Below, piece by piece: positions 35,717-50,503 of a stretch of DNA of 61,608 bases. The stretch's first letter is position 1; every line of letters begins with the position of its first letter. The notes beneath the pieces are model-generated. The model did no database searches, was not told where the DNA came from, and saw nothing but the letters and a program-made list of their open reading frames with translations. A program made the position numbers and the translations under genes. This DNA is from an uncultured Clostridia bacterium (GTDB lineage Bacteria; Bacillota; Clostridia; TANB77; CAG-508), in contig CALXRW010000006.1 of assembly GCA_944390965.1 (NCBI GenBank), forward strand, positions 1-61,608, in the 5' to 3' direction.

Positions 35717-36959
35717 TTAGTCTGTTTCTCTCATTTGTTTTATCATTAAATCTGCAAATATGCCATATCCTTTGCTTGGATCATTTACTAACACATGTGT
35801 AACAGCCCCACAAAATTTTCCATTTTGAATAATAGGTGATCCGCTCATTCCTTGAATAATTCCACCTGTTAAGTTTAATAATTCCTCATCTGTTACTTTA
35901 ATTACCATGCTCTTATTTGTTGTATTGTTATTAGGATAAATTTTTTCTATTTCTATATCATATTCTTTTTTAACATTATTTTCTAGAGAACATATTATTT
36001 TAGCTGGACCTTCTTGAATTTCTTCTCTCAATGCTACTTCCATTTCATTTTGATTACTAATGTTTAATGCAGCAGGATTTTTTAATTTTCCATAAATTCC
36101 AAATGAAGTATTTTGATAAATTTCTCCTATGCTTGGTTGATTCACAATACTTCCTTTTATTTCTCCGGGTATTCCTTTTTCGCCCTTTACAATGGAAACA
36201 ATATTAGAAGTAACTACTTCTCCTTCTGCGATGTCTAGTAATTCTTCTGTATCAATATCCATAATTCCATGTCCGGAGAGCTGCAAACATTCCTGTAGAT
36301 GGTTCATAAAAACTTACTGTTCCCACCCCTGCTGCTGCATCTCTTACCCATAGTCCTAGTTTATATTCATTTGAGCCTGTTTGTGCCGGTTCTATTTGTG
36401 TTTCTTCTACTTGTCCATCTCTTACATATTTAATCGTTATCTCTTGCCCATTTGAACTATTTACGGTTTGTATTAATTCTGCTGTACTACCAACTTGCTT
36501 TTCATTTATTTCTATTATCATATCTCCTTCTTCTATTCCAGAATTTTCATATGGTTTTACCTTTTTATCTAGACTATCTATTTCTGACATACCTACGACT
36601 AATACCCCATTAGTATAAAGTTTTAACCCTATACTGGTACCCACTGGTATTACAGTTGTTTTAGGTATTACATTCACACTTACTTCTTTTAACGGAATAC
36701 TCCCTAAAAGGCTTAATTCTAATTCTACTTCTCCTGTTTTTTCTGAAATAATATTTTTTTCATTCAAGCTACTAGATGCCTCTACTATTTCTTCATTTTG
36801 ACTGTTTTTTTCTTTGATTCGAATGCCCAAAACAGTATTTAATTGCAGTGTTTCTCCTTGAAATAAAATAAGACTATCTGGTATAGCCGTAATATTACTT
36901 GCATAAATTAAAGCAATGATAGCAATAATAAGCAGTAAATAAATCTTTATTTTTTTCAA
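35717..36959 (-). CDS. spoIVB: SpoIVB peptidase, interrupted by a +1 frameshift at CGG
   Basis: Serine peptidase that activates pro-sigma-K processing during sporulation. The N-terminal signal anchor (about residues 5-25) and the PDZ domain (IEEGDMIIEINEKQVGSTAE) are in the first frame, which stops shortly after GMFAALRTW. The expected ALGHGIMDIDTEELL and the catalytic S55 domain continue in the +1 frame to 35717, including the nucleophile motif GGIIQGMSGSPI. The junction is GCT CTC CGG ACA; dropping one C gives CTC GGA CAT, restoring the catalytic GHG. Joined length is about 413 residues, normal for SpoIVB. Same type of lesion, at the same codon, as recD2. Confidence 0.9.
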
Positions 36960-37117: not shown

Positions 37118-38521
37118 TTATATATTTAATTCATTTGATTTGTTATATAACCTATATTTTTCTCTTGCTACTGTTTCTAATAATAGTTTTCTTCTTGTAT
37201 TGGTAATCACTGGTTCATAGTTATTTGAAACCATACAATAATAACAAAGTTCATAATTTCCATAATCAAATGGTTCATAAGTTCCGGTTGTTGGATTTTG
37301 ATAATCACTTTGTGTTCTATATGTCCATTCCCTTGTTGTTTCATATGAGCCATTTACTTCTTCTGTTCTTTCTACTTGTATTTTTTCAAATAAATATTGT
37401 TTATGTCCTATTATCCCTGATTCTACCATCTGTGGGCAATCATATTTATGTATTTTTCCATTAGCGTCTGTAAAACAAACTGTATTCTCTGTTACCATTT
37501 CCTTATTCATAGTGTTTACTACATAAGAATAACCATTATACACTTTTAACCCCATTGGAATTCCCTGCATAAATCCAATAACAGAAATATTACTTAAAAT
37601 TTGATCCCATTCTGTATCTTGTAATACAGGCATTCTAAAATTGTAAGAGGAATTTCTTGAGTATGAAGCCATTGCGGCATTTAGATTATTTTGAATGGAT
37701 AATTTTATAATTCCTTTTCTATGGGAATTGAAAATAGAATTATCCTCTCTTGGATTGTTTTCTGCATTTTCAAAATTTAAAATTTGTTGTGTATGTCCTG
37801 CAAATTGGCTATAGGATTCTTGATCCCAGTCTCCTATTGGCTTGGCATCCCCTTCTGTAATTTCTCCTAGCTCATCTGTTACCCATTGTGTAAAATTATA
37901 GGCATTTTTATAATATTCTTTTGCCTCTGAATCAGTAATGGTAATGCCATCATATACAACATTGTCACCATTTACAGTTAGCAAATCTAAGCTTTCTAAA
38001 TATCCTGCTTTTGTTACATATTCGCTTCCAATATTCCCATAAACTGTTAAATAATTATCCAATGTATAATTTATAACAACATCAATATTTCCTCTTTGAT
38101 ATCTTACTGTATAATAAATATATGGTTTTAAAATATGTTCATATTCACCTGTTGTTTGGTTTATTACAGGTGAATAAATATAATATCCATCATAAAGGGT
38201 ATAAACTAGTGCTGGTATATACTGCATGATATAATCTTGATTTTGCCCATCAACTCCAAAACCTAATGCTAAACTAGATGCAAATGTATTAATAGAAGCA
38301 TTTACATCTCTTATCATAGATTGTGCACTTTTAGAAGTCAAATCATTTAATGTGTTTGTCTTAAATGCTTTAACAGCATCATATACTGCTACATTTAATG
38401 TAGCAGTATATGTTTCCTGTAAACTTAATACATCTATTTGTGTTTTCGTATACATAGAAAACAATAATATCACTGGTAATATAATTATAATAAATATCAC
38501 AGTAAGGTTTTGTAGTCTCAT
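37118..38521 (-). CDS. Large pilin-like/TadE-TadG-like exported protein
   Basis: 467 residues and the last gene of the Tad-like operon. A single N-terminal hydrophobic segment (about 7-25, VIFIIIILPVILLFSMY) is followed by a long extracellular region rich in Tyr, Asn and Thr. The pattern NVAVYDAVKAFKTNTLND resembles the start of TadE/TadG minor pilins. There is no known enzyme motif. It may be a tip or anchor subunit. A possible C-terminal pair CYYC is present. Function inferred only from context. Confidence 0.72.
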   Translation of the reverse strand: MRLQNLTVIFIIIILPVILLFSMYTKTQIDVLSLQETYTATLNVAVYDAVKAFKTNTLNDLTSKSAQSMIRDVNASINTFASSLALGFGVDGQNQDYIMQYIPALVYTLYDGYYIYSPVINQTTGEYEHILKPYIYYTVRYQRGNIDVVINYTLDNYLTVYGNIGSEYVTKAGYLESLDLLTVNGDNVVYDGITITDSEAKEYYKNAYNFTQWVTDELGEITEGDAKPIGDWDQESYSQFAGHTQQILNFENAENNPREDNSIFNSHRKGIIKLSIQNNLNAAMASYSRNSSYNFRMPVLQDTEWDQILSNISVIGFMQGIPMGLKVYNGYSYVVNTMNKEMVTENTVCFTDANGKIHKYDCPQMVESGIIGHKQYLFEKIQVERTEEVNGSYETTREWTYRTQSDYQNPTTGTYEPFDYGNYELCYYCMVSNNYEPVITNTRRKLLLETVAREKYRLYNKSNELNI

Positions 38522-38553
38522 TCTTCTTCACCTTTATTTTAAACTTTTGTATT

Positions 38554-39081
38554 CTACCTACCTGTACTCATTACAACTCCTGAATGTGAAGCAGCAATTT
38601 GATAAGTATCATCTCCACTTAAGCTATAGAAAAAGTTTCTAAGCATTTCAGATATAGTCTTGTTTGTATTTTTTACTTTAACAGATACAATATCCCCTTC
38701 TTTTAAGTTTTTAACACCATTGTTATTTCTTGTTTCTTCTAGTATTTGTGATGTATATTCAGAATAATATAAATTCTCTCCTATTTTAGTAGTAGAGGTT
38801 CCTGCCGCAGGTTTTCTACCTGGGTTTGAGTCTTGAATTTTGAATTCTAATTCTACATCATAAGCATTTCCAGTTGCTGCTAATCTCTCTATGAATGTAC
38901 CATAATTTGCCTCAGTAAATTTCCCAGTTGTTCTAATATTATCTACAAACTGAGTTGTAAGTGTTTGTATATTTAATTGGGTAATATCGTCTGTTCTCTC
39001 TGATACTGACATAAGTGGAAAAACAAACATTAGTGTTGCTGCTAAGAAAATTGCAATGATAGTAATTAAGGTATCTCCCAT
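38554..39081 (-). CDS. Pilin-like membrane protein of the Tad-like operon
   Basis: 175 residues. The N-terminus MGDTLITIIAIFLAATLMFV is a hydrophobic helix without a cleavable leader, then a region RTDDITQLNIQTLTTQFVDN that resembles TadE minor pilins, then a soluble domain. Preceded by a GGAGG-type site. Unassigned, but the layout matches its neighbours. Confidence 0.68.
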   Translation of the reverse strand: MGDTLITIIAIFLAATLMFVFPLMSVSERTDDITQLNIQTLTTQFVDNIRTTGKFTEANYGTFIERLAATGNAYDVELEFKIQDSNPGRKPAAGTSTTKIGENLYYSEYTSQILEETRNNNGVKNLKEGDIVSVKVKNTNKTISEMLRNFFYSLSGDDTYQIAASHSGVVMSTGR

Positions 39082-39116
39082 TTTTTCTCACACTCCTCCT
39101 TTTCTTGCTTCTTATC

Positions 39117-39887
39117 TTATTTTTTTGTATAGATTATAATCGTTTTATCTTCTCCTTCTGATAGTACGGTTCCTTCTTCTGTAACTTCTCCACTTGTTTT
39201 ATATTTAATAAATCTTTCTTCAAAAGTATCGCCTTTATAGGTTTCAAAAAAACCATTGCCATCTTTTAATATTGTCCCATTTATTTCATTGTCAGTTGCA
39301 TCTACGCCCCCCACAAACAAGTCAACTCTTTTGTTAATTCTTTCATTTGTGTTCCAAGGAATAATGTAAGCAGAATTTTGTACTACATTCTTTTTATAAG
39401 AATCTATATAGGCTTTTATCAACTCATTTGGTGTATAGTTTGTACCTAAAAGTTCATTCATTAAATTTAATTCTGGTAGCCTTGTTTTCATATCTTCTAA
39501 TACGCTTTTTCTATAACTATTGGTAATGGAATCACTATTTGGTTGTATATGGTCATATTCTCTCCAAATAATTTCTATATCTCTATCCATTGCAGTATCA
39601 AATACTTGTACAATTTCGTTTTCGGCTGTAATAATGATCCTAAGTGGTTCATTATTATAACGATATAGTGTTGGAATAATTGTTTCTGTACTTACTTCTC
39701 TTGTAATTTCTGCATTTGGTGCATTATCCTCTGATACATATTCATAAAACGTAGAAACATCAGATGCAGCAAATACAATATCTGATGTGCTCTTGGCTTT
39801 GTTAATTACAAAAAATGCTATTGATATGGCAATGACAAATATTAGCATTGCTGCAGCCATTTCTAACGCTTTTGCTACATCCTCCAT
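39117..39887 (-). CDS. Pilin-like protein, 256 residues
   Basis: The N-terminus MEDVAKALEMAAAMLIFVIA follows the M-E-[DN]-x-[AS]-K-A-L pattern shared by the other subunits of this operon, then a transmembrane helix and a longer ectodomain. The gene is close to its neighbours (35-base gaps) on the minus strand. No enzymatic motif. Confidence 0.7.
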   Translation of the reverse strand: MEDVAKALEMAAAMLIFVIAISIAFFVINKAKSTSDIVFAASDVSTFYEYVSEDNAPNAEITREVSTETIIPTLYRYNNEPLRIIITAENEIVQVFDTAMDRDIEIIWREYDHIQPNSDSITNSYRKSVLEDMKTRLPELNLMNELLGTNYTPNELIKAYIDSYKKNVVQNSAYIIPWNTNERINKRVDLFVGGVDATDNEINGTILKDGNGFFETYKGDTFEERFIKYKTSGEVTEEGTVLSEGEDKTIIIYTKK

Positions 39888-39922
39888 TCTCCGTCTTCCT
39901 TTCGATTTTCTAAAATTCTTTA

Positions 39923-40342
39923 TTATTTTTTCTTAATTGTCACTCCATCAATTATCCCAGAATTATAAGAAAATGTTACAGTATAAGTATTTGCTGTTGT
40001 AATTGCATTTTGAGCTTTTGTAATATTAGTATCATCTGTTATATCCTTAACAATATCAGCTGATCCATCATTATATGTAACTTTTACTTCATGAATTTGG
40101 GTATCAGATGCATTAGATGCCCTAATTGCGGATAGCAATGCTCTTACATTACCTGCATTTTGCTCACCTTGATAACTTTCGAATTTTCTATTAAAAATTT
40201 GTTTTGCTTGGTCTGTCATTCCTTCTACACCTTGTTCTACTGGTTCATTCATATTATTTACTACTAAAACTCCTACTGCAATTAATACTATGGCAATTAA
40301 TATTGCTCCTGCTATGATTAATGCTTTTGATGCATTCTCCAT
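39923..40342 (-). CDS. Pilin-like subunit, paralogue 1
   Basis: 139 residues. The first ~65 residues (MENASKALIIAGAILIAIVL, then EQGVEGMTDQAKQIFNRKFE) are almost identical in DNA and protein to those of the gene at 40430. The C-terminal half differs: KVTYNDGSADIVKD versus QVTYKSDESTSN. This indicates a recent duplication with a divergent, presumably exposed C-terminus. The N-terminal helix has no leader peptide and no G/A-F/M cleavage context. Probably assembles as a pilus or pseudopilus. Confidence 0.75.
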   Translation of the reverse strand: MENASKALIIAGAILIAIVLIAVGVLVVNNMNEPVEQGVEGMTDQAKQIFNRKFESYQGEQNAGNVRALLSAIRASNASDTQIHEVKVTYNDGSADIVKDITDDTNITKAQNAITTANTYTVTFSYNSGIIDGVTIKKK

Positions 40343-40355
40343 AAAAAGACCTCCT

Positions 40356-40432
40356 TATCTTTTAGTAATTTCTTTGCAGAACGGGCGATTAAAATCGCCC
40401 CTACAATTTTTACAGATTACTTTATACTACTA
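40356..40432. repeat. Repeat family R1, copy 4
   Basis: GTAATTTCTTTGCAGAACGG plus GGGCGATTAAAATCGCCC, sitting between two nearly identical pilin-like genes and touching the stop codon of the upstream one. It may have taken part in the duplication or merely inserted. Confidence 0.85.
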
Positions 40433-40864
40433 TTTTGATACTTTTGAACTTGTTATTGTTACAGAAGTAATTACACCAGAGTCATATCCAAATTCAACTG
40501 TATAGGTTGCATCCGTTGTAATATCCTCTTGTGCTGTTGTGATTTTATCTTCATCAGTAGTATTTGTAATATTAGATGTAGATTCATCACTTTTATATGT
40601 GACCTGTACTTTATGAATTTGAGTATCTGATTCATTAGATACTCTAATTGCTGATAACAATGCTCTTACATTATTTGCATTTTGTGTACCTTGATAGCTT
40701 TCAAACTTTCTATTAAAAATTTGTTTTGCTTGGTCTGTCATTCCTTCTACACCTTGTTCCACTGGTTCATTCATATTATTTACTACTAAAACTCCTACTG
40801 CAATTAATACTATGGCAATCAATATTGCTCCTGCTATAATTAACGCTTTTGATGCATTCTCCAT
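40430..40864 (-). CDS. Pilin-like subunit, paralogue 2
   Basis: 144 residues. Near-identical N-terminal helix and linker to the gene at 39923, then a diverged tail of ~70 residues ending TSVTITSSKVSK. The stop lies in the edge of repeat R1 copy 4. It probably forms a variable set of major subunits with its duplicate. Confidence 0.75.
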   Translation of the reverse strand: MENASKALIIAGAILIAIVLIAVGVLVVNNMNEPVEQGVEGMTDQAKQIFNRKFESYQGTQNANNVRALLSAIRVSNESDTQIHKVQVTYKSDESTSNITNTTDEDKITTAQEDITTDATYTVEFGYDSGVITSVTITSSKVSK

Positions 40865-40921
40865 ATTTTTTATCCTCCTTATCTTTTGAATTAATATATA
40901 TTTAAAATATTAAAAACAATT

Positions 40922-41350
40922 TTATATTTCTGTAAAACGAATTTCTGCTATTTTACCTGTTTTTTCATGGTAAGCTATTACTTCTCCCTTAAAAGTTGCA
41001 GTATTAAAATTTCGAATAAATTCTGTTGTTCCTACTTTGTATATGGTTTCCATAGGATATATGGTTTCATTTAAAGAAAATTTAATTTCAATTTTAATGC
41101 TATTTTCATCATCTGGTATATAAATTCCTTGTTCATCTTTTTTTATTTGATATGTTTCATTATGGTCTATTGCCTTGTTTAATATGGTACCAACATCTGT
41201 ACCATAAATTTCTTTATTTAAATATTGTTCATATTCTAAGTTAAATTGTTTTGCCATTTTTTGTTTTGCTTCTATGTTGTTTAAGAAGAATATAATTGCT
41301 ACCATGATGCAAATTAATAGGGCTATTAAAATAATAATTGTCTTTTTCAT
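40922..41350 (-). CDS. Pilin-like protein, 142 residues
   Basis: Does not carry the MENA start, but the N-terminus MKKTIIILIALLICIMVAII is a hydrophobic anchor. The region QFNLEYEQYLNKEIYGTDVG matches the FNxxYxxY...G(x)DV pattern of the paralogues at 41406 and 41826. Likely a minor or adaptor subunit. Confidence 0.65.
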   Translation of the reverse strand: MKKTIIILIALLICIMVAIIFFLNNIEAKQKMAKQFNLEYEQYLNKEIYGTDVGTILNKAIDHNETYQIKKDEQGIYIPDDENSIKIEIKFSLNETIYPMETIYKVGTTEFIRNFNTATFKGEVIAYHEKTGKIAEIRFTEI

Positions 41351-41405
41351 AATACTCCCTTTATTATATTATAATATGTTTTTCGCTATTTTTCAAGGGT
41401 TTTCG

Positions 41406-41822
41406 CTAAGTTTTCTGTTCAAACACAATTTCCTTAATTTTACCATTATTTTCTCTATAAGTTATATTTTTACAAATAAAACTGGAGTCAATATATTGAG
41501 GAATAATTTCATTAATGTTCATATTGGTCAAATTTAGATTCGGCTTTGATATTTGTACTGAAATTGGCTCTGTTGGGTCAATTTCATTTTGTTCTTTTGC
41601 TAAATTTACAATTGTAACAATATCATGTATGGTAACATCTTCTTCTCCAGGATAAACAGCAAATTGACTATTAATTTGCTCAATTTCTTGCATTTGCTGC
41701 TGTTGTTGGTACTGTGCACTTAGTCTACTACTATTGGAAAAAAGATATACTCCTAAGGAGAGGATAATAATTCCTATGAGAATGCCACCTGTCATTAATA
41801 ATGCTTTAGAGGCGTTTTCCAT
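41406..41822 (-). CDS. Pilin-like subunit, 138 residues
   Basis: The N-terminus MENASKALLMTGGILIGIII is the shared helix. The ectodomain has EQINSQFAVYPGEEDVTIHD, the family pattern QF..Y.G..DV. It starts three bases before the upstream gene ends. No leader peptide and no enzymatic motif. Confidence 0.7.
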   Translation of the reverse strand: MENASKALLMTGGILIGIIILSLGVYLFSNSSRLSAQYQQQQQMQEIEQINSQFAVYPGEEDVTIHDIVTIVNLAKEQNEIDPTEPISVQISKPNLNLTNMNINEIIPQYIDSSFICKNITYRENNGKIKEIVFEQKT

Positions 41823-41825
41823 GTC

Positions 41826-42326
41826 TTATTCCCCCCTTGTCTCTATTTCTATTTCCTCAAATACCATTTTAGAGATAATACCATTTTCATTTTCAAATTT
41901 TGTTTGATTACTTACACATTTAAAAAATCTTTGTTCTTTAAATAATTTAAAACTAGTTTCATTTTGTTTTAAATTATTATAAGTATTTAATGCACTACCA
42001 GTAAAAATGTAATTATTGGGTTGTAGTCCATCTAAAATATCGGTACGATTAATTCTTACCTCTATTGTTATTGGATTTTCTGGATTCTGGACATTATTAT
42101 TAATAGCTTTATTTGTAATAGTAATAATTTCAATTCCTCTTAGTTCTTTTTTATCATAAGCTGTATACTCTTGATTAAATTTCCTTACTTGTTCTTCTTC
42201 TCTTGCTGCACTTTCATATTCATGCAAATCTCTTGTTCTTGTATATACAATTATTCCTGTAGAAATAATGACTAATGCAATTAAAATTCCTCCTGCTATT
42301 AATAATGCTTTTGCTGCATTTTCCAT
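41826..42326 (-). CDS. Pilin-like subunit, 166 residues
   Basis: The first subunit gene after the membrane platform gene. N-terminus MENAAKALLIAGGILIALVI; ectodomain VRKFNQEYTAYDKKELRGIE with the family pattern. About 27 bases separate it from the TadB/C-like gene. Function inferred from context. Confidence 0.7.
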   Translation of the reverse strand: MENAAKALLIAGGILIALVIISTGIIVYTRTRDLHEYESAAREEEQVRKFNQEYTAYDKKELRGIEIITITNKAINNNVQNPENPITIEVRINRTDILDGLQPNNYIFTGSALNTYNNLKQNETSFKLFKEQRFFKCVSNQTKFENENGIISKMVFEEIEIETRGE

Positions 42327-42353
42327 ACTTTTTATTCCTTTCTATTGTAAAAA

Positions 42354-44429
42354 TTACATCATGCCAGATATAGAGTTGAATGAACTTGTCATACTACTAA
42401 TTCCAATAACAACTAATGGAACAATAAGGTATCCAACAAATAAGCAAATCATTGGTGCAAATCCAATTGCTTTTCCAATTAAGCCTTTTCTTGATATTAA
42501 TCTTTCATTAGATTCTTTTCTTTTTTCTTGGTAATAAGCACGTTCTGTATCTAGTTCATCAAAAGCATCCGCAATTGGTATTTTTTCAACAGAAGCTTGT
42601 AAACTTTCTACAATTCTAATTAATTGTGGTTGTGAAACATCGTTTTTTAGTTCTTCTAGTGCTTCCCATGCACCACTTTCATAGTTATTTACACATTTGG
42701 AAATTGGTTCTCTGAAGATATTAGAATATCTTTCTATCCATTCTAAAATGATTTCTACATTTACTCTTTCAATTTTCATTAACATTAATATAATTGTTTG
42801 GAACTGCATTACTTCATTTTCCATTTCTAGTTGTCTCATTTTAGATTGGAAAACAAGAACAGCAACTGGTGCGTAGTAACCAGCAAAACCAATAACTGCT
42901 GCAAGCAATAGTTCAAACCACTGTAGATGCTCCGTTTTTACAATCTGCAATTTTGTATATAATCTGTCTGCATCTTCTGCAATTTTTTCGTCTCTAACAC
43001 CTTCATAATATTCTGACTCTGATATCGTTTCAATAATCTCTTCTTTTGTAATATCATTTTTATTTTTAAATATCTCTAAAAAGTAATTATCTTGTTCTGT
43101 TAATTCCATTCCTCTTATTTGGTCTGATTCTGATACCATTCCCATAACATCATAATTGCTGGTTGGTTCTTCATATACATTTTTAATTGCTATTCTATGT
43201 AATTGTATAAAAAAAGTTAATGATAGTGCAAAACTCAAAACACATGCACAAATCCTATTGATATATATCCACTCAATTTTGGATTTAGATGCTGAATCTT
43301 TCATGAGCTTTACCATTTTTCTGTTTTCTTTTGAGTTTTTCTTTGGAATAAATAAGTCTATTATTTTTTTGAAAAATGGATTTTTATATATTTTTGCTTG
43401 CCATGGGTTGTCAGTTCCTACTTTTCCATTTGAAGTATCTCCACTGTCTTTTAATTTTCTGATTAATACATAACAAACAAAAGTAATAATTAGGATTAAA
43501 ATTTGAACAATCATTCCACCTTTTCCACCATAGAATTGATTGGTGAAAGAGAACTGTGATACTGCCCAAGATTTTAATGGTTCAATAAACATAATAGGTA
43601 CTGCTGCAATTAAAGATAAACTTTGAAATACATAATCTAATTTATCTCTTTTTAAGATTTCTAATTGCATTTCTTGTGTAATATTATTTAAATTTTTAAG
43701 GTACAAAGATGCACCATCTATTTTTCTATCTCCAAATTCTTTTGTTAAATAGGAGATTCCTGCAAATTCTTTTAAATAACTGTTTGGTGCAATGTCATAA
43801 TATTTTTCTAGTTCTGTTTCAGGATCATTGGAAGTTAATATTTCATAAATTTTGTCCGCTTGTCTTGATACTTCTAGTTCATCATTTTGCGCAACTTCAT
43901 AAATAGCTTCTTCTACCATGTTATATTCATGATAACTATGTCTAATTTCTGCAAAGAAGTCAATCTGTTGTTTTAAAATTTTATTGTCAATTTTATCTAC
44001 CATTCCTTCTACAAGTGTTTCAATAAAGAACACTTCAAAGAGTAATAAAATACATAATAGCATAATATTAGAACTTGTAAGAATTAAAATTAAAATCGTA
44101 AATGGTAATACAACAAGTAATGCTTTTGTAATTACTTTTGCTGTTTGTTTTCTAGTTAAGTATTCATCTTCTATATTAGTAATTTCAAGCCTTCTTCTAA
44201 TTTTTAGCGTGTATCTTTTTATAACAGGAATTTTTAAGAAATATACATATAATTTTTGGTAAAGGATTTCTGTAGAAAATTTCTTCTGTTCTGTTCCTTC
44301 TTTTAATTTTCTTATTGTCTGTGCATCGCCTTTATTCAAGGTTTTTCTAATAATTAAGTAGGCAATTATAATAAGTACTAATAAAGCTCCACTGCCTGCT
44401 AGTATATACATGATGATATTCTCTGACAT
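42354..44429 (-). CDS. TadB/TadC-like fused membrane platform protein
   Basis: 691 residues with about seven hydrophobic segments, one at the N-terminus (about 7-27) and the rest in two clusters. Tad systems normally encode separate TadB and TadC (type II secretion F-like domains); here both halves appear joined in one protein. The second half contains a QFQTIILMLMKIERVNVEI-like stretch and AIGFAPMICLFVGYLIVPLV near the end. It would form the inner platform that the ATPase drives. No known name. The gene order (ATPase, platform, subunits) supports the role. Confidence 0.75.
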   Translation of the reverse strand: MSENIIMYILAGSGALLVLIIIAYLIIRKTLNKGDAQTIRKLKEGTEQKKFSTEILYQKLYVYFLKIPVIKRYTLKIRRRLEITNIEDEYLTRKQTAKVITKALLVVLPFTILILILTSSNIMLLCILLLFEVFFIETLVEGMVDKIDNKILKQQIDFFAEIRHSYHEYNMVEEAIYEVAQNDELEVSRQADKIYEILTSNDPETELEKYYDIAPNSYLKEFAGISYLTKEFGDRKIDGASLYLKNLNNITQEMQLEILKRDKLDYVFQSLSLIAAVPIMFIEPLKSWAVSQFSFTNQFYGGKGGMIVQILILIITFVCYVLIRKLKDSGDTSNGKVGTDNPWQAKIYKNPFFKKIIDLFIPKKNSKENRKMVKLMKDSASKSKIEWIYINRICACVLSFALSLTFFIQLHRIAIKNVYEEPTSNYDVMGMVSESDQIRGMELTEQDNYFLEIFKNKNDITKEEIIETISESEYYEGVRDEKIAEDADRLYTKLQIVKTEHLQWFELLLAAVIGFAGYYAPVAVLVFQSKMRQLEMENEVMQFQTIILMLMKIERVNVEIILEWIERYSNIFREPISKCVNNYESGAWEALEELKNDVSQPQLIRIVESLQASVEKIPIADAFDELDTERAYYQEKRKESNERLISRKGLIGKAIGFAPMICLFVGYLIVPLVVIGISSMTSSFNSISGMM

Positions 44430-44456
44430 TTCACACCTCCTGTTTTTCTTTTGTCT

Positions 44457-46400
44457 TTATACTGTTTTTGGTTTTCTTCCTCTTTTTTTGCTTGTTAGTT
44501 TTTGAGTTTGATTTTGTGAATTTCCCCATGTTTCTTCGATAAATTTATCGAATTCTTCCATATCTGAGGAATCCATATTGCTTCTCATTTCTGCAATATT
44601 GGTATCTGAAATTTTATTGGTAATCACATATTCGTCATCTATATATTCCAAGATATTTACATATCTGTATAATTCCTTATTGGTTGATTTTGTAAAGTAA
44701 TATGTAGCATTGTCTAAAAATTTATCTAATTTTCCTTCTAATGTTTTCTCATTTTTATGTTCAAAGGTATATTCATTTTTATCTTCAACTGGAATACATT
44801 CTGTTACTCTTTCAATGTATCTTCTTCCTCTAAAGTCTTTTACTAAGTGTACATCAAAATTTAATACTTGAATAACTTGTTCTTCAGCTGTTTTTTCATT
44901 TGTGAATACACCTGTTCTAAGCATAGAGTTTCTTAAAGCTGTTACTAAGTTTGGAAATGTTTTAGCATGGTGTGTAAATAACGTAAATTTAGATGCTACC
45001 TGTGCTGCTTGAATCATCCAAGATGCAACTGGGTCTGTTGCAACCTCTCCAATGATGTTAACAGAACCATCTGTTTTTTTCTGAACATCAAGGCCTTCTT
45101 GTCCTGAAATAGTATCTGTTTCTCTGAATGTTAAAATATTTCTTGTTGGATAAATTTTCCTCAAATGAAGCTCGAATGCTGTTTCTTGCACCCTTATATT
45201 CATGGTTTCATAGATATTTTCTATCATACCCATTAACATAGTGGTTTTACCACAACCTTGCTCACCTGTAATAGCAATGATTCTTGCTCCTTTTACTAAA
45301 TACTTTAATAAAGCAATTGCTTTATCTCCACCTGGCGCTGTAATTAATTGTTCTAGTGTTGCTCTTTTTACATCGAATTTTCTTACGAAAAATGCCCATG
45401 TTTCTGAAAAGCTTGGACGTACAACAACAACTCTGGAACCATCTTTCATTTCATTAATTTTATATCCATTTGTATCAGATAATTGTCCTGGGTTATTATA
45501 TTTATATATGTTTTGACAAACTCTTTTTAATTCGCTTTCTGTTCCAAAGGATAAAAACTCTAAACGTATAGATTTTCCTTGGAAAAATATCCAAATACTG
45601 TCACATGCTCTTGGCACTTTGTGTTCTAATATTTGGTCAACATAGTCTGCATCTGTCTGTGCTACTTGGCTTAAGAAACTTTCTGGTAAACCAGATACTC
45701 CCCCAGATACTCCATCTATATTCATATCTCTTATTTCATCAATACTGCTATATCCTTTATAGTGTTGGTATACCCTTTGTACTACTATATTTAATTTGTC
45801 AGCAAAATCTAGTGGAATATTTTCTTTTTCATATATTTCACTGATTTCATCTGAGGTAATAACATAAGTAGGTTTTGTTTCACCTGCTACATATTTTAAT
45901 GTTGCTAAATTATATTTTTTTATTAATACTGTCAAAGCTTCATATCCAAAGTCTTTTTTATAGGCATATAGTAATATGTCAAATTTATCTTGTGCAGTAA
46001 GTAAAGATGGTATATCAAATGGAATGGCTCTAGATATTGTCATTTCATCTACACCATATTCTTTATATAATAAATCATATATTAATTCTTTTACATATTT
46101 TTTATCATTGACATCTCCATAGGTACATCCTTTTAATGCCTTTTTTAATTCATACTTTTTATTTTTTCTTCTTTTTAATTCTTCTTCTGAAAGGCCTATA
46201 TCATATAGGTTTATTTTAGTAATCTCATCTAATCTTCTTTTTATAAATTCGCTCATTTTTTCAAGTGTATATGTTTTATCATCTACACTTTTAATTTCTT
46301 CTTCATCGTCTTGTTTCTTTTTTTTGGTTATTTTATATACAACTGTAAAAATAATGACAGCTAAAACAACTAAAATTAGTAATATGTTTAATATGTCCAT
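44457..46400 (-). CDS. TadA/CpaF-like secretion ATPase
   Basis: 647-residue hexameric motor for pilus assembly. Walker A ITGEQGCGKTT is near residues 378-388. An N-terminal membrane segment (about 5-22), lacking in classical CpaF, and an unusually long N-terminal region (~350 residues) set it apart. His- and Asp-box-like parts follow (VNIIGEVATDPVASW, FTLFTHHAKTFPNLVTALR). A gap of 27 bases separates it from the platform gene. The ATPase type is clear; the substrate is inferred. Confidence 0.88.
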   Translation of the reverse strand: MDILNILLILVVLAVIIFTVVYKITKKKKQDDEEEIKSVDDKTYTLEKMSEFIKRRLDEITKINLYDIGLSEEELKRRKNKKYELKKALKGCTYGDVNDKKYVKELIYDLLYKEYGVDEMTISRAIPFDIPSLLTAQDKFDILLYAYKKDFGYEALTVLIKKYNLATLKYVAGETKPTYVITSDEISEIYEKENIPLDFADKLNIVVQRVYQHYKGYSSIDEIRDMNIDGVSGGVSGLPESFLSQVAQTDADYVDQILEHKVPRACDSIWIFFQGKSIRLEFLSFGTESELKRVCQNIYKYNNPGQLSDTNGYKINEMKDGSRVVVVRPSFSETWAFFVRKFDVKRATLEQLITAPGGDKAIALLKYLVKGARIIAITGEQGCGKTTMLMGMIENIYETMNIRVQETAFELHLRKIYPTRNILTFRETDTISGQEGLDVQKKTDGSVNIIGEVATDPVASWMIQAAQVASKFTLFTHHAKTFPNLVTALRNSMLRTGVFTNEKTAEEQVIQVLNFDVHLVKDFRGRRYIERVTECIPVEDKNEYTFEHKNEKTLEGKLDKFLDNATYYFTKSTNKELYRYVNILEYIDDEYVITNKISDTNIAEMRSNMDSSDMEEFDKFIEETWGNSQNQTQKLTSKKRGRKPKTV

Positions 46401-46428
46401 ATTTTTAAGCCCCTTCCTTTGTAAAGAA

Positions 46429-47262
46429 TTATCTCCTCATTTGTAATTCTTGCAATTTTGCAATAATACTTTCTGTTGTGTTATCTACTTCTTTAATAAA
46501 AATGGCATTTCTGTCTGTAGGATTAATATTACGAAATCTCCAAAAGAATTCATCTACTGTTGCATCATTTGTTGCATCAAAGAACAGTGTACTGTATGGT
46601 ATGGTGCAAATTTCATTTCGAATTCCCATATATCTAGCTATATTTTTGCTCGTAAATTTTGAAAATTTATCATATCTTCCTAATAATAATAAAGTGTTTC
46701 CTTTTTGAAAAAGTGGATTATTTTCTCGTAATGCCATTACTTCATTAATACTTTTTATTTTTTGTGTAAAATTAATTAAAATTAAATCTACATCATTTAA
46801 TATATCTACAATATATTTTTTATCTAATCCTTTGTTTAAGTCCACAAAAACTAAATCGTAATATCGGTTGGCTACTTGTAGTAAATCTCCATAAATTGGG
46901 AAAAATCTCTCGTATTCTTCATAAGAGTTTGTTTTAGGTGGTAGCAAAATTTCTAATCTATCTTTGAATACAACTTTTGTGTAGTTTGTTATAATTTCTG
47001 GTGTTGCTCTATTACTTTTTAATGCTTTTGCTAATCCCTCAATTCCAGATTCAATTCCAAAATTATTTCTTTTTGATAAAAAATTCTCAGTTGTTTGTGC
47101 CTTTTTCCAATAGCATGATTCTAAAGTATCATCGTTATAACGTGTAGATACTGTTAGAATTCTATAATTATGTTTAATTGCCATATAAGTAGAAATTGCT
47201 ACCATTGATAAGGTTTTTGCACTTTCTTCTTTTCCATTGCTCCAAAAGGCTACAACTGACAT
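46429..47262 (-). CDS. MinD/TadZ-like ATPase with a degenerate P-loop
   Basis: 277 residues. The N-terminal WSNGKEESAKTLSMVAI resembles the deviant Walker A of MinD/ParA proteins (KGGxGKT expected), while the second lysine-like position is altered. YYDLVFVDLNKGLDKKYIVD matches the ParA-type Walker B region. In Tad loci TadZ-like proteins locate the machine at a pole. Two such genes are adjacent here. ATP binding uncertain. Confidence 0.7.
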   Translation of the reverse strand: MSVVAFWSNGKEESAKTLSMVAISTYMAIKHNYRILTVSTRYNDDTLESCYWKKAQTTENFLSKRNNFGIESGIEGLAKALKSNRATPEIITNYTKVVFKDRLEILLPPKTNSYEEYERFFPIYGDLLQVANRYYDLVFVDLNKGLDKKYIVDILNDVDLILINFTQKIKSINEVMALRENNPLFQKGNTLLLLGRYDKFSKFTSKNIARYMGIRNEICTIPYSTLFFDATNDATVDEFFWRFRNINPTDRNAIFIKEVDNTTESIIAKLQELQMRR

Positions 47263-47264
47263 TC

Positions 47265-47960
47265 CTATACTCCTTTTTCTATATTCTTAAATATTTTTCT
47301 AATTTCACTTTCTCTTTGATTACCTAATATTTCTGTTGCAATATAAATCAAACCTTCTTTATATTGATTACTTAAATTTTTAAATTTTATTTTAGAAGCT
47401 CTTTGATTTTCTATAATCACGCTTTGATCTCCTAATTCATATGGAAAATATATTTTTTCTTCTTCCCATTGAATAGGATAAGGACTTGCTAAAAAATTTA
47501 AATAATCGTCATCTTCTTGATTAATATCTCTAGAAAATAAAACTTTTTTTAAAGTCAAAGGTTCTTTTAAACCACTTATAATTTCTATTCCTCTTTTTAA
47601 AGAATACATGTCAAATGAAGTAACAAAATAGTTTATTTTGGCATGTGAAATATCAAAATTATTAAACGTTTTGCTTGAGTCTACATCAATTAATGCCATA
47701 TCATAGTTTTCACTAATATCATCTACCATAAGGTAATCATTGATTTGTGGCAGTTCGTGGAAACCAACTGCCACATCCATATTTTCAAACTCGGTAACAT
47801 ATGTTGTGGTAGGATTAATAACAGGTATAATATATTTTGCTTTTTGATTTGTAGTAGCATCTATTACAATAATTCTTTTTCCTGCTTCTGTTAATATTTT
47901 GGCGATTTGTATGATAAGGTCTGTTTTATCAAATGCCCCAATAAATCCGATTTTCTCCAT
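47265..47960 (-). CDS. Second MinD/ParA-like protein, degenerate P-loop
   Basis: 231 residues. The start MEKIGFIGAFDKTDLIIQIA keeps the beta-strand and helix of a ParA fold but lacks a GK[ST] P-loop, so it is probably a nucleotide-free or weakly binding partner of the gene just downstream. NYDMALIDVDSSKTFNN resembles a Walker B/Switch II strand. Only two bases separate the two genes. Confidence 0.65.
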   Translation of the reverse strand: MEKIGFIGAFDKTDLIIQIAKILTEAGKRIIVIDATTNQKAKYIIPVINPTTTYVTEFENMDVAVGFHELPQINDYLMVDDISENYDMALIDVDSSKTFNNFDISHAKINYFVTSFDMYSLKRGIEIISGLKEPLTLKKVLFSRDINQEDDDYLNFLASPYPIQWEEEKIYFPYELGDQSVIIENQRASKIKFKNLSNQYKEGLIYIATEILGNQRESEIRKIFKNIEKGV

Positions 47961-47974
47961 GTTACCTCCTTATT

Positions 47975-49087
47975 TTATTGTACAACTGTACTACCAGAAG
48001 CTGCTGCATTTAGTTCTTCCCAATATTGCTCTCTTGCTTCTAATTGTTTTGTCATGTCTTCTGCAACTCCTGATTCAATTGATCCTTTAGCTGATTCTGC
48101 ATATTGATTTAATGCTGGATTAATTGCCCCTTCTCTTTGTTCTGTGTTATATCTTGCACGTAAAGCATCTTTTACTTCTTGTATAATATTTGGGTTCTGT
48201 TGAATCAATACTCCAACATTGTTGCTAACTGGATATGTTGGTGTTGCTTCTGCCTGCATACCAGGGTCTATATAGGTCGTTGCATAAAATTTTGATCCTG
48301 TAATGGTATAAGCTGTTATAATAGCATCACTCATAGTAAGCATTTCTAATTCAGATAGTTGAATTTTAATGGTATCTGCTGTTGCATCTAAAATTTGTTT
48401 TTTAGCTAATACTAGGTAGTCTTGTCCTGTTTGTAAGGTTAATCTAATGTCTACATAATCTCCTACTTCTAGTTCTACTGGTAATGAAATCATATTATAT
48501 TCTTGGATTCTAGCATCATCTGTTACTGCTTGATTTGCTTTAGATACCATATCTAATGTTACAACAGTATTCGCCTTTAAGTCTACTTTTGCAACAATTG
48601 GATTGTTTTGTACTTCAATATATTGTTTTTGATTATTATTTGACATTGTATAATATCTATCTGTTCCTGGTTCATTATAGACTGTTACATTTTGGTTGTT
48701 TATTGTAATATACATATTACCTTCTTCATTTGTTTTAATGGTTTGACCTGAACTTTTTTCTACTAAGAATTGATTTAAGAAAATATCAACTGGTGCTACC
48801 TTTCCTTCTTCTACTGTTACATTTGCTGCTATTGCATTTGCTGGCACCATAGAAATATCTACTTCCATAGGAATTAATAAATCCTCAGTAATAGTTTGAC
48901 CTGATTTTACATCTTGTGCCAGTGTATAAACTGTTACTTTACTTTGTTCTCTTTGTTGTTCCTCTTCTTTCATGTTTGTAATTTGTACTAAAAGAACAGC
49001 TATAATAATTCCTGTTACTAGTAGCATAATAAACATTCCCAATAAAAATGAATTTCTTGATTTTCTTTGCATTGGATTAATTGCCAT
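47975..49087 (-). CDS. CpaB/RcpC-like SAF-domain pilus assembly protein
   Basis: 370 residues and the first gene of the operon. A single transmembrane segment (about 14-37) is followed by a SAF domain: VYTLAQDVKSGQTITEDLLI and AKVDLKANTVVTLDMVSK. Family members (CpaB/RcpC) in Gram-negative Tad systems couple pilus and cell wall; here it would sit at the membrane surface. The C-terminus is Ala- and Glu-rich. Confidence 0.82.
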   Translation of the reverse strand: MAINPMQRKSRNSFLLGMFIMLLVTGIIIAVLLVQITNMKEEEQQREQSKVTVYTLAQDVKSGQTITEDLLIPMEVDISMVPANAIAANVTVEEGKVAPVDIFLNQFLVEKSSGQTIKTNEEGNMYITINNQNVTVYNEPGTDRYYTMSNNNQKQYIEVQNNPIVAKVDLKANTVVTLDMVSKANQAVTDDARIQEYNMISLPVELEVGDYVDIRLTLQTGQDYLVLAKKQILDATADTIKIQLSELEMLTMSDAIITAYTITGSKFYATTYIDPGMQAEATPTYPVSNNVGVLIQQNPNIIQEVKDALRARYNTEQREGAINPALNQYAESAKGSIESGVAEDMTKQLEAREQYWEELNAAASGSTVVQ

Positions 49088-49149: not shown

Positions 49150-49178
49150 ATTGTACATCATTTTACATATAAAAACAA
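49150..49178 (-). promoter_or_regulatory. Promoter of the Tad-like operon
   Basis: Minus strand TTGTTT (49173-49178), 17-base spacer, TACAAT (49150-49155), 62 bases upstream of the cpaB-like start. Moderate match. Confidence 0.55.
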
Positions 49179-49203
49179 TAATTTAAGGTTGTGTAATATA
49201 AAA

Positions 49204-50094
49204 TTAATTTGTTTGTAATATTTTTGTAATATTTCTTTCAATCGCTTGTCCCACACCATTTTCTTCATTAGACGTAGTAATATCATCTGCTATTTTTTTT
49301 ATCTCTGGAGCAGAGTTTGCCATAGCAATTCCTAATCCCGCATTTTTTATCATTTCTATATCATTACTATTGTCTCCAATTGTCATAATTTCTTCTGTTT
49401 TAATATTTAATTTATTTGCTAAATATTGAATTGCATTCCATTTATTGGTGTTTTCTTGGGTGATTTCTGTATAATAATATTGTATTTCCAAAATTTCAGT
49501 TCCCATTTTTATTTTTTTTCTAGACATGTGTGAAACTTCTAGAATATCAATTTCTTTTATTTTTTTAACTTGTTCTAATATTCTCGCAAAAATACTACTT
49601 GTTTCGTCGCAAATTGTTATTTTTAAAAAATTTAAGTTTTCCGTTGTTTTTATATAAAGTGGTATATCTTCAATAATATTAATTTGAGTCTTTTTTCCAT
49701 CTTCTTTATTTCTATTTTCATAATAATAGAATAAAGTATTATAATTTAAAGATTTTGTTATAATAGCATTATCTGTAAATACCGTATAATACATACTATT
49801 TTTTTCGCAGAATTCTACTATTTCTATTACTTTTTCTCTTGGTAAATAATGATTGTATAAAATCTTTTCGTTTTGCAAATCATAAATAACAGCACCATTG
49901 CCAGAAATAAAATAATGTTCTGCCCCAATTTCTTTTGAAAAGTTTATAGTAGATGCAATAGAACGACCTGTTGCTAACACAATTTCCACTTTTTTTTGGA
50001 TTGCCTCCTGAATAATTTGTTTATCTTTTAGCGAAATTTGCCCATATGGGTCAAGCAAGGTTCCATCTAAGTCAATTGCCACAAGTTTATACAT
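49204..50094 (-). CDS. Cof-type HAD-IIB phosphatase
   Basis: 296 residues; a haloacid dehalogenase superfamily phosphatase, probably acting on phosphosugars or FMN-like substrates. Motif I is VAIDLDGTLLDPYG near residue 5-18, motif II VLATGRS, motif III-IV MTIGDNSNDIEMIKNAGLGI and MANSAPEIKKIAD. A type IIB cap lies between motifs. Substrate not determinable. Isolated between the Tad operon and the SASP gene. Confidence 0.93.
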   Translation of the reverse strand: MYKLVAIDLDGTLLDPYGQISLKDKQIIQEAIQKKVEIVLATGRSIASTINFSKEIGAEHYFISGNGAVIYDLQNEKILYNHYLPREKVIEIVEFCEKNSMYYTVFTDNAIITKSLNYNTLFYYYENRNKEDGKKTQINIIEDIPLYIKTTENLNFLKITICDETSSIFARILEQVKKIKEIDILEVSHMSRKKIKMGTEILEIQYYYTEITQENTNKWNAIQYLANKLNIKTEEIMTIGDNSNDIEMIKNAGLGIAMANSAPEIKKIADDITTSNEENGVGQAIERNITKILQTN

Positions 50095-50296: not shown

Positions 50297-50503
50297 ATGG
50301 CAAACACAAACAGCAATAGAAAATTAGTTCCAGAAGCTATGGACTCTTTAGACAGATTTAAATATGAAGTAGCTAGTGAAGTTGGAGTTAACTTAAAAAA
50401 TGGTTATAATGGAGATATATCAGCTAAAGATGCTGGTAGAATCGGTGGTAACATGGTAAGAAAAATGATCCAACAAGCTGAAAATCATATGATTGGTAAG
50501 TAA
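50297..50503 (+). CDS. Alpha/beta-type small acid-soluble spore protein
   Basis: 68 residues. It coats spore DNA and protects it from UV and heat. The family motifs RFKYEVASEVGVNLKNGYNG and GRIGGNMVRKMIQQAE are near-perfect, including the GPR protease site region KYEVASEVG. AGGAGGTGA precedes the ATG. This is direct evidence of spore formation. Confidence 0.97.
   Translation: MANTNSNRKLVPEAMDSLDRFKYEVASEVGVNLKNGYNGDISAKDAGRIGGNMVRKMIQQAENHMIGK

Follow-up and report, generated by a model that had tools for sequence, protein, structure and literature searches.

A Tad-like operon with a fused TadB-TadC platform and subunits without a canonical prepilin leader in Clostridia

Organization of the operon

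The window analysed here is the whole 61,608-nucleotide stretch of DNA from an uncultured Clostridia bacterium of family CAG-508 in order TANB77 (hereafter the order; GCA_944390965.1, contig CALXRW010000006.1), in which positions 37118-49087 hold an operon related to the Tad/Flp (type IVc) pilus loci. As the original prediction, made from the letters alone, had described, thirteen genes run in one direction: 13 open reading frames lie on the minus strand with 2-87 nt between neighbours. A Shine-Dalgarno-like sequence stands close 5' of every operon start codon, most starts have an in-frame stop no more than 20 codons upstream, and the start positions recur in relatives. Longer hidden leaders are therefore excluded for the main subunits, and the objection raised with the original prediction, that mis-called starts might conceal leader peptides, was rejected on these grounds. 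The gene order, given by the last two digits of the gene names, is 13-12-11-10-09-08-07-06-(05/04)-03-02-01 and is constant across about 75 loci of the family. The genes are as follows.

47975-49087, minus strand: P0013, CpaB/RcpC-like SAF-domain protein with one N-terminal anchor, 370 residues (Pfam SAF, TIGR03177)
47265-47960, minus strand: P0012, TadZ/MinD-like protein without a P-loop, 231 residues (CbiA, MinD structure; conserved in all families)
46429-47262, minus strand: P0011, TadZ/ParA-like protein with a reduced P-loop, 277 residues (alignment; weak ParA/MinD structure matches)
44457-46400, minus strand: P0010, CpaF/TadA-type motor ATPase with an N-terminal anchor, 647 residues (T2SSE, CpaF structures)
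42354-44429, minus strand: P0009, TadB-TadC fusion platform by hhalign to separate TadB-like and TadC-like genes, 691 residues
41826-42326, minus strand: P0008, major-type subunit, MENAAKAL, 166 residues
41406-41822, minus strand: P0007, major-type subunit, MENASKAL, 138 residues
40922-41350, minus strand: P0006, subunit with a similar head and an MKK N-terminus, 142 residues (kept at that position in most loci)
40430-40864, minus strand: P0005, major-type subunit, MENASKAL, 144 residues (AlphaFold2 model)
39923-40342, minus strand: P0004, paralogue of P0005 with a near-identical anchor and a diverged head, 139 residues (DNA identity)
39117-39887, minus strand: P0003, minor subunit, MEDVAKALEM, 256 residues
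38554-39081, minus strand: P0002, minor subunit, MGDTL, in the TadE/F position, 175 residues
37118-38521, minus strand: P0001, large minor subunit, 467 residues (conserved last gene in all families)

The inventory of the original prediction, namely a SAF-domain protein, two ParA/MinD-like proteins with defective P-loops, a CpaF-type ATPase with an N-terminal membrane anchor, a single 691-residue TadB/TadC-like protein and eight exported single-anchor proteins (P0001-P0008), was borne out by the searches and alignments described below.

Motor, platform and accessory proteins

The motor P0010 matches T2SSE with 27 bits, over the cut-off, and its profile retrieves the CpaF structures 8rkd and 9e24 as best matches (E about 1e-9; 8e-10). 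In the alignment, its Walker A, GE and HHA boxes are invariant, and a hydrophobic anchor is found at its N-terminus.

The platform P0009 was compared with three operons in which the platform is split, one lying outside the order and two belonging to a sister family within it; in the sister-family operon, the neighbours of the split platform are a clear T2SSE ATPase and a SAF/RcpC protein. Residues ~63-326 of P0009 align by hhalign to the separate TadB-like gene (E 1e-13 to 1e-14) and residues ~304-671 to the separate TadC-like gene (E 3e-26). Each half matches one separate gene, and by this alignment P0009 is a fusion of TadB and TadC. P0009 itself matches no Pfam family including T2SSF, which its split homologues reach weakly (E=0.03-0.14), its profile finds no match among PDB sequences, and no similarity to the PilC of the same genome was detected. 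In some genomes, mainly of genus g2, the platform is split again near residue 430, away from the ancestral joint.

P0013 exceeds the Pfam SAF cut-off with 22.1 bits and reaches TIGR03177 (pilus_cpaB) with 24.9 bits (E=1e-5), below the cut-off. P0012 matches CbiA at E=0.013, and its profile matches the MinD structure 4v02 at E=0.0055. In P0011 the P-loop is reduced, being TGKT in relatives with the preceding KGG absent; the protein matches ParA/MinD structures weakly (E=0.2-0.7), and its plasmid orthologues carry a ParA annotation. No significant match to a solved TadZ was obtained for P0011 or P0012. Both appear to be degenerate MinD/ParA-like proteins; their database matches are weak, and the name TadZ is taken from operon position and P-loop remnants. 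Comparison with phage protein families yielded weak matches only, to families of unknown function.

Distribution and phylogeny

Of the 143 genomes sampled from the order, 116 encode the platform, and these cover 29 of 33 genera. A sample taken across the class yielded it in 34 of 391 genomes, among them members of families f11, f56 and f65, which do not belong to the order. The comparison of synteny that the original prediction had proposed was carried out: three further families of the order and other Clostridia families keep the arrangement of the operon, with fewer or more subunits, and so do plasmids of Bacilli and Butyrivibrio. Motor homologues covering at least 80% of the query occur on 23 plasmid records. 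Five of these records were examined, from Thermobacillus, Paenibacillus, Alkalihalophilus, Lysinibacillus and Butyrivibrio, and all carry the whole cassette in the same order, with a SAF protein, two proteins in the MinD/ParA positions, CpaF, a platform of fused size and four subunits; the plasmids of the last four genera are large. In the ATPase tree, the fused-platform lineage forms one clade (support 0.965) inside a Tad branch, deeper members having split platforms. This single clade supports a distinct Gram-positive Tad (type IVc) lineage, which is characterized by the fused platform, two MinD-like partners and the lack of a canonical class III signal peptide. The whole operon can be read, with a probability of roughly 0.7, as a filament machine of the Tad lineage for a monoderm envelope.

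The plasmid copies bear on a different reading, in which the operon encodes not a surface pilus but a short-piston device for secretion or DNA transfer, and the plasmid copies serve plasmid biology. Genes for S-layer-domain and DUF5704 proteins lie downstream of the plasmid cassettes, one cassette has a conjugative coupling protein beside it, the subunit heads are small, and no adhesin domain was recognised in the operon proteins by Pfam search. Against this, the operon is chromosomal in context within the order, the ATPase tree follows the families, and no conjugation genes were seen beside it there; we regard the piston as unlikely. A phage, conjugative or mobile origin within the order is likewise not supported, since the ATPase tree follows families.

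The neighbourhood differs elsewhere. Outside the order, the operon adjoins a Ser/Thr protein kinase (L163:14974-16386, L164:5086-6549, L166 and L168-L171), and in L164 a DUF6382-FHA protein is also beside it, which suggests possible phospho-regulation. On the Bacilli plasmids (L215-L218), an S-layer-homology protein and a large DUF5704 protein follow the cassette and are possible surface partners or cargo.

Subunits with a common anchor and diverged heads

The original prediction had the subunits starting MEN(A)xKAL. This holds for P0004, P0005, P0007 and P0008, which begin MENAxKAL, and nearly for P0003 (MEDVAKAL); P0001, P0002 and P0006 start otherwise. P0002 is the subunit conserved most widely, from Clostridia through the Bacilli plasmids. 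The DNA of P0004 and P0005 is 96% identical across the first 177 nt and 68% across the remainder. Paralogue pairs in several other loci follow this pattern, with no difference in residues 1-31 and an identity of 40-65% between the heads; one pair is near-identical throughout. Invariant anchors with diverging heads fit subunits that are packed by their helices and expose their heads. The AlphaFold2 model of P0005 (pLDDT, the predicted local distance difference test score, 85.8) has a helix at residues 2-31, further helices and an alpha/beta head with four main strands; it was compared with the pilin fold, in which a long helix packs against an antiparallel sheet, and gave no significant fold match. 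In relatives, P0003-type subunits mostly have D/E at position 6 and K at position 9, while the major type has K6; the opposite charges at position 6 might allow pairing between subunits.

N-termini and prepilin peptidases

The N-termini were compared in 227 major-type subunits, and in 297 subunits for charge and for position +5. Among the major type, E2, N3, A7 and L8 each occur in 225/227 and A4 in 222/227. Residues 1-7 carry a net charge of 0 or below in 297/297, and E/D at +5 is found in 0/297. The Flp prepilin signature (a leader, G at -1 and E/Y at +5/+6) is absent, the boundary residue being Ala and not Gly, and P0001 and P0002 have no plausible cleavage site. The type IVa prepilins of the same order, nine collected upstream of PilB in sister genomes with a pattern that itself demanded D/E at +5, plus the genome's own, have leaders that vary in sequence and length, carry charges of 0 to +4 and mostly end in Gly at -1. 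The MENASKA stretch is as conserved as the helix that follows, and such strict conservation at each position would not be expected of a leader that is removed, which favours its retention. The chance that the subunits keep the N-terminus M-E-N-A-x-K-A, with no leader lost, is put at about even odds. The fuller proposal, that subunits are assembled with initiator Met and an acidic residue 2, need no peptidase and are expressed in step with growth and division through a WalR-type operator, is held tentatively, at somewhat less than an even chance.

A rival explanation, likewise given somewhat less than an even chance, is that the subunits are divergent but ordinary prepilins, whose 7-residue leader MENASKA is removed after Ala7 by the genome's unlinked A24 peptidase; the PilE leader MNTLQKG has the same length of 7 residues, and archaeal prepilin leaders can similarly be without Glu+5. 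Several observations weigh on this side, or against a filament machine in general. A7 is almost invariant exactly where a class III site needs Ala or Gly, so that non-canonical cleavage is possible; a boundary Ala, rarely Gly, persists where the preceding residues differ (MSTNASKA-L, MGNAQSA-L, MDSVTKA-I, MGGSLSEG-L). An A24 peptidase is encoded in 135 of the 143 sampled genomes of the order, and among 24 genomes that carry the operon but no other strong type IV pilus ATPase, 22 keep it, which makes cleavage by an unlinked enzyme possible. A TadV-like gene adjoins the operon in one relative only (L164, genome G459). No solved pilin matches any subunit in sequence or fold, and Foldseek searches with the subunit models gave nothing significant; the label pilin therefore rests on anatomy and context. 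The predicted structure of P0009 is of low confidence and too weak to use, and Foldseek with this model found no significant match. The filament is predicted from the genes. In known systems, the last residue of a prepilin leader is Gly or Ala, and Glu+5 is common without being universal (PMC10191384); prepilin peptidases are often unlinked and shared (PMC6668835).

The cleaved-prepilin explanation has its own difficulties. The supposed leader is conserved like the helix and is neutral or acidic, unlike the type IVa leaders of the order; P0003-type subunits have K or E at +2; and P0002 and P0001 offer no candidate site. The A24 gene is also present in 9/9 genomes that have neither the operon nor the type IVa pilus, so that its presence is not tied to the operon. 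These nine (G012, G044, G051, G071, G087, G102, G114, G135 and G139) have no strong type IV pilus or Tad ATPase. Genome G029, a 94% complete metagenome-assembled genome, has an intact operon, no type IVa pilus and no A24 hit, and at the position of the A24 gene in a sister species its contig runs on without a break, the site being closed; with caution, it may be taken as a peptidase-free carrier of the operon. Genome G062 was rejected as a second such case, its gap falling between two contig ends. The co-occurrence of operon, type IVa pilus and A24 in the 143 genomes was also considered as a test of dependence and is uninformative because A24 is nearly universal.

The original prediction accordingly stands in part. 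No TadV or other prepilin peptidase lies within the operon, as it had stated, whereas the genome does encode one intact A24 prepilin peptidase with both catalytic motifs, unlinked to the operon (contig 24, 10722-11474); a peptidase-free genome is thereby rejected, and the finding that the prediction itself had named as telling against it has been made. Its statement that there is no leader to cleave holds for a canonical class III signal peptide; non-cleavage has about even odds, A7 and the A24 gene speaking against it. Of the proposed distinct Gram-positive pilus or secretion system that needs no peptidase, the distinct Tad lineage is retained, and the peptidase independence is kept as a possibility with somewhat less than an even chance.

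Probable promoter and operator

Two regulatory features lie upstream of P0013.

49150-49178, minus strand: probable sigma-A promoter, TTGTTT, 17 nt, TACAAT, read from the sequence
49192-49230, minus strand: operator of WalR/PhoP type, four DTWACA-like hexamers with an 11-bp period (ATTACA AAAAT ATTACA AACAA ATTAAT TTTAT ATTACA)

The operator lies upstream of the sigma-A-like promoter, whose layout recurs in the majority of the roughly 30 upstream regions that were aligned. The best score for four hexamers at an 11-bp spacing is at least 20/24 in 71/72 loci and in 2% of shuffles, and period 11 alone is favoured. Most loci from the order's other families keep the array, and f11 loci do not. The three-repeat core occurs once in the window, where 0.02 is expected, and 9 times in the genome, compared with 5 for a reversed control pattern. 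The operator matches the WalR consensus TGTWAH-N5-TGTWAH when this is read as its reverse complement (PMC9210968) and resembles Pho boxes (PMC4415409). Transcription of the operon is probably driven by a regulator of the WalR/PhoP type, as named from its sites.

Core sites precede, among others, ftsA, sepF-divIVA, a cohesin-domain secreted protein and the type IVa pilus operon; those at sepF-divIVA, ftsA and the pilus operon are at contig 9 position 11634, contig 10 position 41399 and contig 16 position 10967. An operator type common to ftsA and sepF-divIVA, together with two MinD-like proteins, could point to an envelope- or division-linked apparatus that forms no filament, its anchored proteins being arranged by the MinD-like partners at the septum or poles. 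The same operator also stands before the type IVa pilus operon, and with 9 matches to 5 in the control, single sites may be due to chance. Moreover, CpaF motors with TadB/TadC platforms are known only as movers of pilins, and this explanation seems distinctly improbable.

Proposed mechanism and significance

From gene content, homology, platform fusion, conservation, N-termini and operator, we infer how the putative filament machine may be assembled, placed in the cell and regulated. A cytoplasmic hexameric ATPase of CpaF type would drive the TadB-TadC platform in the membrane, which would lift single-anchor subunits from the membrane to build a filament or piston. The several subunits of the major type would contribute one common anchor helix and different heads, while the conserved minor subunits P0003, P0002 and P0001 might start or cap the filament. 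The two degenerate MinD/TadZ-like proteins could position the machine, and the CpaB-like SAF protein could guide the filament through the wall. There being no outer membrane, no secretin would be needed; as the original prediction had noted, the secretin RcpA is absent from the operon, the genome as a whole not having been searched for secretins, and it is not expected in a monoderm. A WalR/PhoP-type regulator, whose sites also precede cell-division genes and the type IVa pilus operon, would drive transcription.

The processing of prepilins is considered a hallmark step of every type IV filament, and if the subunits prove to need no peptidase, this would be, to our knowledge, the first type IV filament exempt from it. 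The lineage is conserved in gut Clostridia and plasmid-borne in culturable Bacilli, and its subunits look unprocessed, which makes the processing rule directly testable. The system also displays a single-gene platform and multiple subunits with a common anchor and diverged heads, and a possible co-regulation with cell division in organisms whose surface appendages are hardly studied.

Other genes near the operon were annotated by eye. At 35717-36959 of the window, the overlapping open reading frames 36252-36959 and 35717-36307 appear to be one SpoIVB-type protease gene with a frameshift, and a gene resembling those for small acid-soluble spore proteins lies at 50297-50503. The genome is small (1.4 Mb).

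Comparison with known systems

The same genome holds a complete and separate type IVa pilus locus (contig 16), with PilB, PilT, PilC, a canonical prepilin and a PilD-like protein. It has in common with the operon the logic of motor, platform and subunits and the upstream operator type, and differs in its PilB/PilT/PilC and PilM-like proteins and its canonical prepilin, MKEKLKNKNG-LTGID. Its PilD-like protein (contig 16; L132:5200-6051) has a strong A24_N_bact match and no detectable Peptidase_A24, the second catalytic motif not being recognisable; this gene and the A24 gene of contig 24 may divide the methylase-like and peptidase functions between them.

A survey of 2011 mentioned tad-like loci without any protein bearing a prepilin signal motif in some Clostridia, the 'no Flp_2' group, carried by Clostridium kluyveri, C. 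cellulolyticum, C. bolteae, C. sp. L2-50 and Desulfitobacterium hafniense (PMC3244431). Like the operon, these loci have tadA, tadC, tadZ and rcpC homologues, no recognisable prepilin and a distant relation to other clostridial tad genes; they differ in being said to include tadV. Compared by description, they are probably the same or a sister lineage, and to that extent the subtype put forward as distinct in the original prediction had already been noticed. No paper characterising this system was found in the literature; the lineage is widespread and unstudied, and similar loci have stayed uncharacterised since that mention.

With Tad/Flp (type IVc) systems, the operon shares a CpaF-type motor, both TadB and TadC platform halves, a CpaB-like SAF protein, small single-anchor subunits and a single-operon arrangement, and probably TadZ/MinD-like partners. 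It differs in the fusion of TadB with TadC, the two TadZ-like proteins and the lack of a Flp pilin, Glu+5, a canonical leader, a linked TadV and an in-operon secretin; its major-type subunits have 138-166 residues with a folded head, whereas Flp pilins have about 60. Of the marks of the type IV filament superfamily, the motor, the platform and subunits anchored by a single helix are present. Of those specific to Tad, the CpaF/TadA motor, the TadB/TadC platform and the CpaB/RcpC SAF protein were found, and a Flp prepilin and a linked TadV were not, and the operon is therefore filed as a variant of the Tad kind. To the archaeal type IV pili that have two platform genes, no close relation in sequence was found, no search having been aimed at it; such pili have been reported as the ancestor of Tad (PMC6668835).

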